Part shown: positions 9,404 to 58,229 of the stretch, piece by piece | How positions within the stretch are numbered: the stretch's first letter is position 1 | Layout: each line of letters starts with the position of its first letter | Assembly: GCA_022775905.1 (NCBI GenBank) | Contig: JALFJX010000009.1 | Coordinates: 124,001 to 188,000 of the forward strand | Origin: Methanobrevibacter sp. | GTDB taxonomy: Archaea > Methanobacteriota > Methanobacteria > Methanobacteriales > Methanobacteriaceae | Direction: 5' to 3' | DNA length: 64,000 nt | Notes under the pieces: model-generated | Seen by the model: only the letters and a program-made list of their open reading frames with translations | Databases searched by the model: none | Told to the model about the DNA's origin: nothing | Made by a program: the position numbers and the translations under genes

Positions 9404-9421
9404 TAATAAACCCCCTTAAAT

Positions 9422-10849
9422 TTAGAATTTTTTAATGAGGTTTCCTTCACTGTCTACAATATTTACTTCAGCTAATCTCATTTGACTATCCATTGAGTGA
9501 GTAGCACAAGATAAACATGGGTCGTAAGCTCTGATAACCATTTCCATTAAGTTGAAAATTTTGTCATCTACTTCAACACCAGGTTTGATGTAATCTTTAG
9601 CAACTTGGTGAATACCCATTTCCATAGCTGGGTTGTTTTGGATTGTAGCAACAACAATGTTAGCTTTAGTACATAATCCATTGTCATCAGATTCGTAATG
9701 GTGGATTAAAGTACCACGAGGAGCTTCTACAATACCTACACCTTTACCTTCAGTTCTTTCTAATTCATCTGGGAATTTTTGACCAGATAAATCTCCTTCT
9801 AATGCGTTAGCAGCACATTCAGCAGATGCTAATAATTCAATGAGTCTAGCATAGTTGAATAATAATGGTGCTTGAGCATATCCGAAAGCATCACGGAAGT
9901 CTTTGAGAGCTTCTCTTGCGAGAGGTGCTTCAGCAGGCATGTCGTCACAAACATTGATCCTGGATAATGGTGCAACTCTGTAAATACCTTCTGGGTATCC
10001 TAATTCTTTAATGTATGGGAATTTTAACCAGGAGTAAGGTTTTACATGTTCAGCAACAATATCAGTATATTCAGCATTTCTGTATTCTAAAAGGTCGCTT
10101 CCATCTTTATCTTTGATTCTAACGTTACCGTTATATACATCCCAAGTTCCATCAGGTTTTACGAGACCACAGTGTCTGGTGTCACCGAAGTTACCTAAAG
10201 ATGAGATTAAGTCGATGTTTTCTTCAAATACAGGAATAGCTAAGTCTAAAGTAGCTTGTGCTAATTCTACGTTTTGTTTAGCTCTTGCGAGTAAATCTTT
10301 TTGAGTTTCATCATCTAATTCTGTAGAAATACCACCAGGAGTGGAAGAAGTAGGGTGAATTGGACGACCACCGATTTTTCTAACAATTTCTAAACCGTTT
10401 CTTCTGATGTTAATAGCTTGAAGAGCTAATTCAGGCATGTCTTTAATAACTTGGAAAACATTTCTAGTTTTTCTAGTTCCGTTAGGAATGATTAAATCTG
10501 GTGCAGCTAAGAAGTAGAAATGAAGAGCGTGGGAGTGCATGTATGAACCCCAGTTCATGATTTCTCTCATTCTGTATGCATCAGGTAAAATTTCATTGTC
10601 ATCAAATCCGAAAATTTGGTCAACAGCTTTAGCTGCTGCTAAGTGGTGTTGTACATCACAAATACCACAGATTCTAGGTACGATTCTTGGTAATTCTTCT
10701 ACAGGACGACCTTGTAAGAATTTTTCGAATCCTCTGAATTCCATAACGTGTAATCTTGTTTCTTCGACGTTTCCAGCATCGTCAAGGTGTACAGTAATTT
10801 TTGCGTGTCCTTCGATACGGGTAACAGGTTCCATAGTAAGTTTAACCAT
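9422..10849 (-). CDS. mvhA: F420-non-reducing [NiFe]-hydrogenase large subunit
   Basis: Large catalytic subunit of the cytoplasmic Mvh hydrogenase, which oxidises H2 and passes electrons through MvhG and MvhD to HdrABC for flavin-based bifurcation. The four nickel-ligating cysteines are visible: RICGIC (Cys61, Cys64) and DPCLSC (Cys445, Cys448). The 475 residues include the C-terminal stretch after [10 protein letters not shown] did not confirm a maturation-protease site. mvhG ends 1 bp upstream, so translation is probably coupled. Confidence 0.97.
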
Positions 10850-10850
10850 C

Positions 10851-11777
<927 letters not shown>

Positions 11778-11792
11778 ATTAATTCCTCCAAT

Positions 11793-12218
11793 TTATTCCT
11801 CAACATTTAATTGTTCTTTTAATGGAGCTGGACCTAATCCTTTGATTCTGCTAACCATCATTTTAACAGCTTCAGAGAATTTTTCACCTTCGGATGCGGA
11901 AATCCAGTCGTGGTGAAGTCTTTCTTTTCCAATTCCCATATCTTCGACTAATTTATAAACTAATCTCATTCTACGATCTAATTTATAGTTACCAGCATCA
12001 TAGTGGCAGTCACCCATGTGACATCCAGCTACAAATACCCCATCAGCACCTTCTTTAAATGCTTTTAAAATAAATTGTGGGTCAATTCTTCCAGAACACA
12101 TTACACGAATAACTCTGATATTCGGTGGGTATTGCATACGTGCAGTACCAGCTGTGTCTGCTCCTCCATAGGAACACCAGTTGCAACAAAACATTACAAT
12201 TTTTACATCATCAGCCAT
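11793..12218 (-). CDS. mvhD: Mvh hydrogenase delta subunit, link to heterodisulfide reductase
   Basis: A 141-aa MvhD/FlpD-type [2Fe-2S] protein that bridges MvhAG to HdrA. Cysteines are at CCNWCSYGG near the N-terminus, VMCSGR, and [17 protein letters not shown]. All are ordinary cysteines; some methanogens use selenocysteine in this family, but no in-frame TGA is needed here. It is the first gene of mvhDGAB, with a GGAGGAGAAACTCT ribosome-binding site and an unusually long upstream leader region. Confidence 0.96.
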
Positions 12219-27360: not shown

Positions 27361-27661
27361 GATTACCTCTCAACTTTTTTAGAAAACTTTATAAACTATA
27401 ATAAAACATTTCTAATTTAAGAAAAATAATATTGAAAGTAATACTTTTTATTTTTATTTAAAATCAACAAAAATTAAAATAAATAAATATAATATTCAAT
27501 AATCAATAAAAAAGATTAAATCAAAAGTATATTAAATAAATTAGAACATAAATGACTTTTCTAATAAAAATAAATAAAAATATTAAATTATTACTTAAAA
27601 CATTTTAAGTAATAAATAATACAAAAAGTAATACAAAAATTTACCCAAAAAATACTGTTAA

Positions 27662-56274: not shown

Positions 56275-56916
56275 ATGAATGTTTATTTTAAAGATGGAAA
56301 TGTAGCAACCAAGAATCTAAATCCTGGAGTATCAGTTTATGGAGAAGAACTAGTTCAGGAAGATGTCGAATACAGGATGTGGAATCCTAGACGTTCAAAA
56401 CTATCAGCAGCCCTCTTAAATGGATTAGAAAATTTAAAGCTCGAGGACACTTCAAAAGTATTGTACCTTGGTGCATCAACTGGAACAACAGTTTCCCACA
56501 TTTCAGATATTGTAATTAATGGAAGAGTTTATGCGGTTGAATTTTCACCGACAACAGCTAAAAAATTAGTCCAACTTTCACGTCAAAGGTTTAATATTGC
56601 TCCGATTTTAGGAGATGCAACCAAACCAAAAGGATATCTAAACATTGTTGAAAAGGTCGACTTAGTGTACTGTGATGTTGCTCAGCCAACACAAAGTGAA
56701 CTGTTTATGAGAAATATTAACATGTTTGCAAAAGATGACGCACAGGGACTTATAACTATTAAAGCTAGAAGTATCGATGTAGTACAAAAACCTAAAAAGA
56801 TTTTCAAGGAACAAGAAAAGAAATTGAAAGAAAAAGGTTTTAAGATTATTGAAAAAGTAAAACTGGAACCATACGAGAAAGACCATATTGCATTATTGGT
56901 GGAGAAAAATTTTTAA
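56275..56916 (+). CDS. flpA: Fibrillarin, C/D-box RNA 2'-O-methyltransferase
   Basis: A 213-aa archaeal fibrillarin: SAM fold with YLGASTGTTVSHISDIV (about residue 66), YAVEFSPT and VYCDVAQPTQ. It pairs with Nop5 directly upstream, with only 3 bp between. Normal length. A gene-poor 638-bp gap follows. Confidence 0.96.
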   Translation: MNVYFKDGNVATKNLNPGVSVYGEELVQEDVEYRMWNPRRSKLSAALLNGLENLKLEDTSKVLYLGASTGTTVSHISDIVINGRVYAVEFSPTTAKKLVQLSRQRFNIAPILGDATKPKGYLNIVEKVDLVYCDVAQPTQSELFMRNINMFAKDDAQGLITIKARSIDVVQKPKKIFKEQEKKLKEKGFKIIEKVKLEPYEKDHIALLVEKNF

Positions 56917-57037
56917 AAAAAATCGACTAATTTTCACCACCAAATCGACAAAAAAATAGCTGTAAGAAACATAAAAAATTACTACAAAAACCCCAAAAAA
57001 GTATTACTTAGATACCTTTTTATACTAGAAACCTAAA

Positions 57038-57046
57038 AATTATATA
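57038..57046 (+). promoter_or_regulatory. TATA-like element of the candidate small RNA
   Basis: AATTATATA lies 21-29 bases before the expected first base of the structured RNA (57067). This is normal archaeal spacing and favours independent transcription. Confidence 0.5.
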
Positions 57047-57066
57047 TGCTAATGCAAATAAAATAA

Positions 57067-57150
57067 AAGTTCATTGAAGCGCCCTTTAGGTTGATTCACT
57101 CTATTAATCACTCCATTTAACGAAAACCTAAAGGCATGAACTTATTTTAT
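57067..57150 (+). ncRNA. Candidate small RNA with a two-stem hairpin
   Basis: No gene lies here, but two perfect stems nest: AAGTTCAT (57067-57074) with ATGAACTT (57136-57143), then CCTTTAGGTT (57083-57092) with AACCTAAAGG (57125-57134). The internal loop is asymmetric (8 bases against 1). The 32-base terminal loop contains two near-copies of TCACTCYATT (57096-57105 and 57108-57117). A T-rich stretch follows at 57145 and again near 57161. A TATA box lies upstream. C/D or H/ACA boxes are absent. Loop sequence can pair with the mcr leader. Transcription and length are inferred. Confidence 0.55.
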
Positions 57151-57554
57151 AAAAATACTATTTTTTAGAAGACTTTTTTTCAAAGACAATTTTACTCATT
57201 TTAATTAAAAAAAGTATTACTCCCAAGTGCTAATTTTGCATAAAAATTTACCAGCAAAATTAAAAAATTAATTCATTGAAAAGCCAACAACAAAACTAAT
57301 TTTTAAGAGGATATAATTTTCAGATGAGAAAATAAGATTACCTGGAAATGATACTAATGAAATTACCCATACAAATTAAAGTTTGAAAATTTCATGAAAA
57401 CTATTGTACAACAAAAAACTGGAAGAAAAAAAGTATTGCTTAAATTAAAATAATGATTGATTAAAATAATAGTTAAAATAAAATTTAGTAAAATAATTAC
57501 TTAAAAAAATAAGAATAATAATAGTGATGATATAAAATTCATCTAAGGAATGCA
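57151..57554. other. AT-rich gap with repeats and no intact gene
   Basis: This 404-bp stretch has no full gene. It contains a second perfect hairpin (TAATTTTGC at 57231-57239 with GCAAAATTA at 57254-57262), a copy of AAAAAAGTATTACT at about 57208 and a similar one near 57427 (the first copy is at about 56995), and short out-of-frame coding-like fragments near 57325-57453. A TTCATTGAA copy at 57272 echoes the small-RNA start region. It may be a decayed duplicate or remnant. Confidence 0.45.
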
Positions 57555-58229
57555 CTAATCTACATGTGAAGATGTTTTTTTAGAAATTACATCACAAATG
57601 ACTTTTGCAATCTCCCTTTTTGATGCAAGTGGAACAGACATTACATCATCATCAACTATCAGAACCTCATTATTGTCAGATCCGAATTGACATTCGTTCT
57701 TTGATATGTCATTTGCAATAACAATGTCCGTACCTGCCTTTTCTATCTGTTTTCTAGCACAACAGATTATCTCATCTTTTGTAATATTGAATTCCGCTTT
57801 AAACCCTACAAGAAAGATATCAGGATTTACCTTTTTGACCTGACGGATGATTTTTGTTGCAGGTTTAAGATTCAATGATAAAGAATTGCTTGAGTCAATC
57901 TTTTTATCATCTTTCTTTTTGAATTCAAAATCAGAAACAGCTGCAGTTGATATGAAAATATCAAAATCAGGAATCAGATTCAATATAGCCTCGTTCATTT
58001 CATTACCTGTCTCCACACGGACAACATTGAAAACAGAAGGAATATCAACACTGACTTTAGCTACAACCAAAGTCAAGTCCGCACCTCTAATGTATGCTTC
58101 TTTTGCAAGTGCCAAACCCATCTTCCCAGATGACTTGTTTGTAATTCCCCTTACGGAATCTATAGGTTCATAGGTTCCACCAAGACTAATTAAAACTCTT
58201 TTTCCTTTAATAAGATCAATCCTTCTTGT
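57555..58229 (-). pseudogene. coaBC: CoaB domain of CoaBC in a shifted frame
   Basis: Phosphopantothenoylcysteine synthetase domain (CoaB), CTP-dependent. The open frame runs from 58229 and encodes LIKGKRVLISLGGTYEPID, VRGITNKSSGKMG and onward, all conserved in CoaB, but no ATG, GTG or TTG occurs in it before ATG 58121. That late start would lose the GGTYEPID and SSGKMG sequences. It joins the CoaC frame by a +1 shift within 58216-58229. It could be a frameshift mutation, a sequence error or programmed frameshifting. Confidence 0.75.

Follow-up and report, generated by a model that had tools for sequence, protein, structure and literature searches.

A predicted small RNA gene of gut methanogens with a promoter box shared by nickel/cobalt uptake genes

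We report that a long hairpin, situated beside two RNA-modification genes in a 64,000-nucleotide stretch of Methanobrevibacter DNA (the window), is, judged by its conservation and covariation and without transcript data, the core of a conserved, structured and independent small RNA gene with its own promoter. The gene is previously undescribed. A control sequence at the promoter, the box AGTAWTACT, is common to the RNA and to nickel/cobalt uptake genes, and this suggests a metal-responsive regulatory RNA, a kind for which no archaeal report was found in a partial and limited search of the open-access literature. Few archaeal regulatory RNAs have a known signal; a covariation-supported RNA that occurs across gut-methanogen genera and is tied to a nickel/cobalt uptake operator makes RNA-based nickel control directly testable.

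The predicted RNA and its conservation

An earlier note, made without database searches, had pointed to two nested perfect stems of 8 and 10 bp and a 32-base loop with two near-identical motifs; the stems are present exactly where it had placed them, and so is the loop (Table 1). The fold of positions 57038-57170 beats chance (z = -3.0, 1/200 shuffles), as does that of the predicted transcript, 57046-57165 (z = -3.8, 0/200 shuffles). The RNA start was inferred from the distance to a TATA box and the RNA end from a T-run. Two blocks are conserved upstream of the RNA, AAAAAGTATTACT and, 8 nt further on, the TATA box TTTTTATA; given the usual distance between TATA box and start in archaea, the position of this box places the RNA start near 57046, where there is an almost invariant 5' mini-hairpin, and about 20 nt before the outer stem. 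The mini-hairpin takes the form UUGC-UAAU-GCAA in other genera, and its invariance is too high for a covariation test. The TATA-like element chosen in the earlier note, ATTATATATG (about 57039-57048), cannot be upheld, since it lacks conservation and falls on the predicted start.

Table 1. Features of the locus, in window coordinates
Feature	Position	Strand	Basis or remark
flpA (fibrillarin), upstream neighbour, outside the unit	56275-56916	+	synteny
Operator box 1, AGTATTACT, odd-length palindrome AGTA-W-TACT	57000-57008	.	8 nt upstream of the TATA box, at about -46 to -38 from the predicted start
TATA box of the RNA gene, TTTTTATA	57017-57024	+	conserved in the genus alignment and across genera
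Predicted small RNA, about 120 nt	57046-57166	+	conserved block, fold z -3.8, covariance-model matches; both ends inferred
5' mini-hairpin, UGC-UAAU-GCA	57047-57056	+	near-invariant; also predicted on the de novo alignment
Lower stem, 5' side, partner 57143-57150	57058-57065	+	fold; weak, A/T only in the source species
Outer stem (8 bp), 5' side, AAGTTCAT	57067-57074	+	94.9% of cells paired; double changes in 2/7 modelled pairs
Asymmetric internal loop, 5' side	57075-57082	+	sequence variable
Inner stem (10 bp), 5' side, CCTTTAGGTT	57083-57092	+	98.6% of cells paired; compensatory changes in 7/8 modelled pairs
Apical loop, 32 nt, two CACUC motifs	57093-57124	+	motifs retained across genera despite stem change
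Loop motif 1, TCACTCTATT	57096-57105		
Loop motif 2, TCACTCCATT	57108-57117		
Inner stem, 3' side, AACCTAAAGG	57125-57134	+	sequence, covariation
Outer stem, 3' side, ATGAACTT	57136-57143	+	sequence, fold, covariation
Lower stem, 3' side, partner 57058-57065	57143-57150	+	fold; first base shared with the alternative outer-stem end
T-run, probable terminator	57161-57166	+	ACTATTTTT-like block conserved across genera
Operator box 2, AGTATTACT	57213-57221	.	213 bp from box 1, about 50 bp beyond the RNA
coaBC-type gene, convergent downstream neighbour, outside the unit	57555-58121	-	synteny

A DNA search of 61 genomes recovered an 83-nt element in 31 of the 37 same-genus genomes, at 75-96% identity; those records of this genus that carry a name in a public collection belong to Methanobrevibacter and come largely from animal guts. 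Covariance-model matches were obtained in 93 of 150 genomes of the order, spread over eight genera of the same family and nearly always in one copy. The first model had been built from 30 same-genus sequences, and a second one added the genomes G105 (E = 6e-7) and G089 (locus L287; E = 0.03, a weak match). Both carry two operator boxes, respectively 267 and 265 bp apart; given that these boxes are absent from the model, we accepted both genomes and count ten genera. There was no convincing match in some genera of the family, nor in any tested member of other families, including those designated f2 and f3.

Within the genus the stems are nearly invariant, with double changes at two pairs. Among 48 homologues, by comparison, double changes occupied 40 cells, where shuffling gave 10.1 on average (none of 500 shuffles reached 40), and the covariation score was 0.269, against a maximum of 0.116 for control structures slid along the alignment. 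This alignment had been fitted to the covariance model; hence the analysis was repeated on a plain MAFFT alignment of 25 diverse sequences, from which RNAalifold recovered the inner stem with double changes in 7 of the 12 predicted pairs. At locus L287, the stem is built from different letters, CCTCATAG/CTATGAGG as against CCTTTAGG/CCTAAAGG, yet two CACTC-type loop motifs are present. Distant members, folded as single sequences, form the same long hairpin, whose internal loop on the 5' side is asymmetric (z from -1.8 to -5.3). Conservation in a covariance search of relatives and compensatory changes in both stems were among the checks that the earlier note had proposed, and both came out in favour of its independent small RNA, which is now supported by conservation in about ten genera, by covariation and by a promoter of its own.

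We also considered what else the hairpin might be. No tRNA was found, and no open reading frame is kept across the homologues, in agreement with the earlier reading. Rfam gave no match in the window at gathering thresholds, and only sub-threshold, chance-level matches in a permissive search; the family, which had not been recognised from the letters, thus has no Rfam counterpart. A C/D or H/ACA guide RNA, also set aside earlier, finds no support either: there was no Rfam guide-RNA match above threshold, and the structure, one long hairpin, has no conserved C/D boxes. The 5' segment opens with ATG in many members of the genus, as might be expected of a gene for a short conserved peptide (e.g. 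ATGCTAATGCAAATAAAATAA). However, none of frame, length and start codon is retained across genera and the stems covary as RNA, and we find a peptide gene hardly credible.

The order flpA–RNA–coaBC is kept across genera, and this conserved neighbourhood speaks for vertical inheritance. The same synteny would be expected if the hairpin were a cis element, that is, a 3' UTR, processing site or terminator belonging to the nop5-flpA operon or to coaBC. We regard this as very unlikely, given that the RNA has its own conserved box and TATA box and keeps them together with it in a number of genomes in which flpA sits several hundred bp away, and that coaBC lies on the opposite strand at a variable distance. 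Separately, flpA and the RNA promoter are set further apart in several genomes (L009, L018, L020, L029 and others) by about 380-650 additional bases that look non-coding.

Operator boxes and the link to metal uptake

The most informative part of the locus, the operator boxes, had been missed in the earlier note. Box 1 is exact and at the same offset in 27 of 30 same-genus loci, has one mismatch in two, and is lost to a contig end in one. Its mean identity in the genus is 0.93, compared with 0.59-0.68 just upstream, and it is conserved in other genera too. Box 2 occurs at +146/147 in nearly all loci of the genus, 212-213 bp from box 1 in most of them, with an identity of 0.95 as against 0.42-0.68 in its flanks. 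Over all genera the distance between the boxes is 212-267 bp. Both boxes are exact in 37 of 47 loci, one is exact in seven (in most of which the other has a mismatch), and neither is present in three related ones. The conservation of so distant a box suggests that one tetramer bridges two sites, but this is a hypothesis only; helical phasing of the distances gave p = 0.04 when all distinct distances were used and p = 0.44 with one per cluster, and is not significant when clustered. In the three related genomes that lack both boxes at the RNA (L140, L148 and L150), the RNA and NikR are kept. At locus L144 (G150:C122), an internal deletion took the 3' half of the RNA; both boxes remain, now 133 bp apart.

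Within the window, the 9-mer box occurs only four times; AGTAATACT lies at 27437-27445 near a radical-SAM gene (L035), which by eye we take to resemble methanogenesis marker 10. The box forms a direct repeat on both sides of the RNA, as would the repeats AAAAAGTATTACT flanking a miniature mobile element. This notion is already contradicted by the single copy and vertical synteny of the RNA in many genera, by the differences in box spacing between genera and by the presence of the box in unrelated promoters, and it can practically be set aside.

In the genome from which the window derives, AAAGTATTACTY occurs 13 times. Pairs of AGTAWTACT boxes, 32-33 bp apart, precede cbiM in all 30 of 30 genus genomes, and the majority of the other tested genera have the cbiM pair as well, as does the f2 family, in which the RNA itself was not detected. 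One of the cbiM boxes and box 1 are about equally far from their TATA sequences. In the window's own genome, box pairs also precede a NikA-like solute-binding protein gene and two heavy-metal P-type ATPase genes. The two ATPase genes, at L031 (1502-1583, contig C2) and L040 (1396-1628, contig C21), have between one and three AGTAWTACT pairs, spaced at 33 bp and placed around TATA-like sequences. Pairs at 32 bp were further seen at a surface/adhesin-like gene (L033, about 1502-1543) and at a gene for a coiled-coil-type protein adjoining a surface protein (L039, about 1502-1543), and thus the regulon may extend beyond metal transport. Finally, a single AGTATTACT lies upstream of frhA in two relatives (L197 and L200) and is degenerate in the own genome; direct control of the F420-reducing hydrogenase through this box is possible.

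It has previously been reported that NikR sites of delta-proteobacteria have the form GTGTTAC-[N13/14]-GTAACAC, with the reverse arrangement also occurring, and that they stand before nickel/cobalt ECF transporter genes (PMC545781). The half-site found here, GTATTAC/GTAATAC, agrees with the published signal at 6 of 7 positions and is used in either orientation, and it too stands before such transporter genes. The spacing, in contrast, is N25/26 in the transporter promoters rather than N13/14, about one helical turn more. At the RNA promoter, a NikR-type half-site is present and conserved across genera; the canonical N13/14 dyad is not, there being a single box with the second 212-267 bp away. 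A NikR gene was found in the own genome (G000:C6:13926-14153, 105.8 bits; an NCBIfam nickel responsive regulator) and in 50 of 51 genomes tested. We infer NikR as the binder of the box from the half-site match, from the location of the box before nickel/cobalt uptake genes and from the presence of NikR. Thus, the RNA is probably metal-controlled, with NikR as the inferred controller and nickel as the inferred metal, in the absence of binding or expression data. The locus thereby offers a candidate operator sequence for an archaeal NikR, together with an unusual two-operator layout.

It remains possible, although we do not favour it, that the RNA and boxes are real and that the box answers to another regulator or signal, a general metal response or cobalt for instance, which would leave the system metal-linked without involving NikR or nickel. 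The ECF protein is named cobalt transporter CbiM by NCBIfam as its best match, and therefore the signal metal could be cobalt; paired boxes also occur at heavy-metal ATPase and surface-protein genes, and the spacing is unlike that of known NikR operators. On the other hand, the match to the published half-site with both orientations in use, the box at the NikA-like gene and the occurrence of NikR in nearly every genome all favour NikR.

Proposed function and candidate targets

We lean, with limited confidence, towards a stand-alone small RNA gene that, in lineages of the Methanobrevibacter type, has its own TATA promoter, is switched by a metal regulator (likely NikR) acting on AGTAWTACT, and pairs through its loop with mRNA starts. 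When metal is present, NikR would sit on both boxes, box 1 beside the TATA box and box 2 past the end of the gene, possibly as a bridge between them, and the RNA would be off. Under nickel shortage, the RNA would be made together with the uptake genes. Its stems would then display the 32-nt loop, whose two CACUC motifs could pair with purine-rich starts (GGAG/GAGUG type) of target mRNAs; such pairing would lower translation of the targets and amount to a nickel-sparing response. The structured RNA, the promoter, the boxes and the sharing of the box with nickel/cobalt uptake genes are read from the sequence, while NikR as binder, repression, the nickel signal, the mode of pairing and the nature of the targets are inferred only. 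Two findings speak against the role given to the boxes: where the transporter promoters have a pair at 32-33 bp, the boxes of the RNA are single and 212-267 bp apart, and at three homologous loci neither box is present in spite of a NikR gene in the genome.

Purine-rich translation-start sequences could base-pair with the loop motifs CACUC and CUCC, to which they are complementary. Alternatively, the repeated CACUC motifs may bind or sequester a protein instead of pairing with mRNA. The motif stands twice in a large loop and is conserved there, and no conserved mRNA target was found, both of which would fit such a role; however, no candidate protein has been identified, and CUCC and CACUC are the very motifs expected of an RNA that pairs with Shine-Dalgarno sequences. 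We consider protein binding unlikely on balance, and retain mRNA pairing as the working scheme.

Nickel is required by methyl-CoM reductase and by [NiFe]-hydrogenases. How methanogens lower their nickel enzymes under nickel limitation is unsettled. In Methanothermobacter under nickel limitation, the Frh and Mvh (MvhAGD) proteins disappear (PMC12350162), and an earlier study reportedly saw no fall in mvh transcription. Loss of Mvh without a reported fall in transcription implies that a post-transcriptional route exists somewhere. A more specific version of our scheme, in which the RNA is an archaeal nickel-sparing small RNA, NikR tetramers bridge the operators 212-267 bp apart, and a lack of nickel leads the RNA to stop translation of nickel enzymes, the Mvh hydrogenase for example, is speculative and in our view rather improbable. 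If true, it would supply the kind of post-transcriptional control that the Methanothermobacter data hint at.

In bacteria, RyhB-type metal-sparing small RNAs are induced by starvation and lower the amounts of metal-using proteins, in a system that involves iron, Fur and Hfq. The economy proposed here is the same; there is no homology to the archaeal RNA. Among methanogens, sRNA162 of Methanosarcina mazei is not, to our knowledge, under metal control. It is likewise a trans-acting methanogen RNA, but it has two domains and reported targets and comes from a different order (PMC3510493). A precedent for the proposed logic is NikS (HPnc4160) of Helicobacter pylori, a small RNA which NikR represses in response to nickel and which, by pairing with mRNA leaders, acts as a repressor itself (PMC8322730); here, nickel control of the promoter and leader pairing are inferred only. 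NikS also differs in belonging to a bacterium, in the variable T-stretch of its promoter and in its virulence-factor targets, and no relation in sequence or structure is apparent.

No target is established for the RNA. A perfect GGAGTGATT occurs at 14 places in the own genome, only one of them at a convincing start site, ahead of a gene that by eye resembles one for an aconitase-type small subunit (LeuD/HacB); we rejected the strict anti-Shine-Dalgarno idea based on this perfect match. TGGAGTG-N-ATG is commoner than its reversed control in five genomes; nearly all of the 30 loci examined are not gene starts. The leaders of the Frh hydrogenase genes showed no convincing conserved duplex with the loop. 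Genes of the mvhDGA type, for an F420-non-reducing [NiFe]-hydrogenase, lie in the same window (9421-12218, minus strand). When 61 window genes were ranked by duplex energy with the RNA loop, the mvhG start region came first and mvhD fifth. Compared with shuffled loops, three genomes gave mvhG fractions of 0.007-0.05 and another three gave 0.12-0.61; we do not claim it as a target, as the signal is uneven across species. At L050 (1501-1515, own genome, contig C4), GGAGTGATTAAT-ATG, which is perfectly complementary to the second loop motif, lies at the start of a gene that resembles one for an aconitase-family small subunit.
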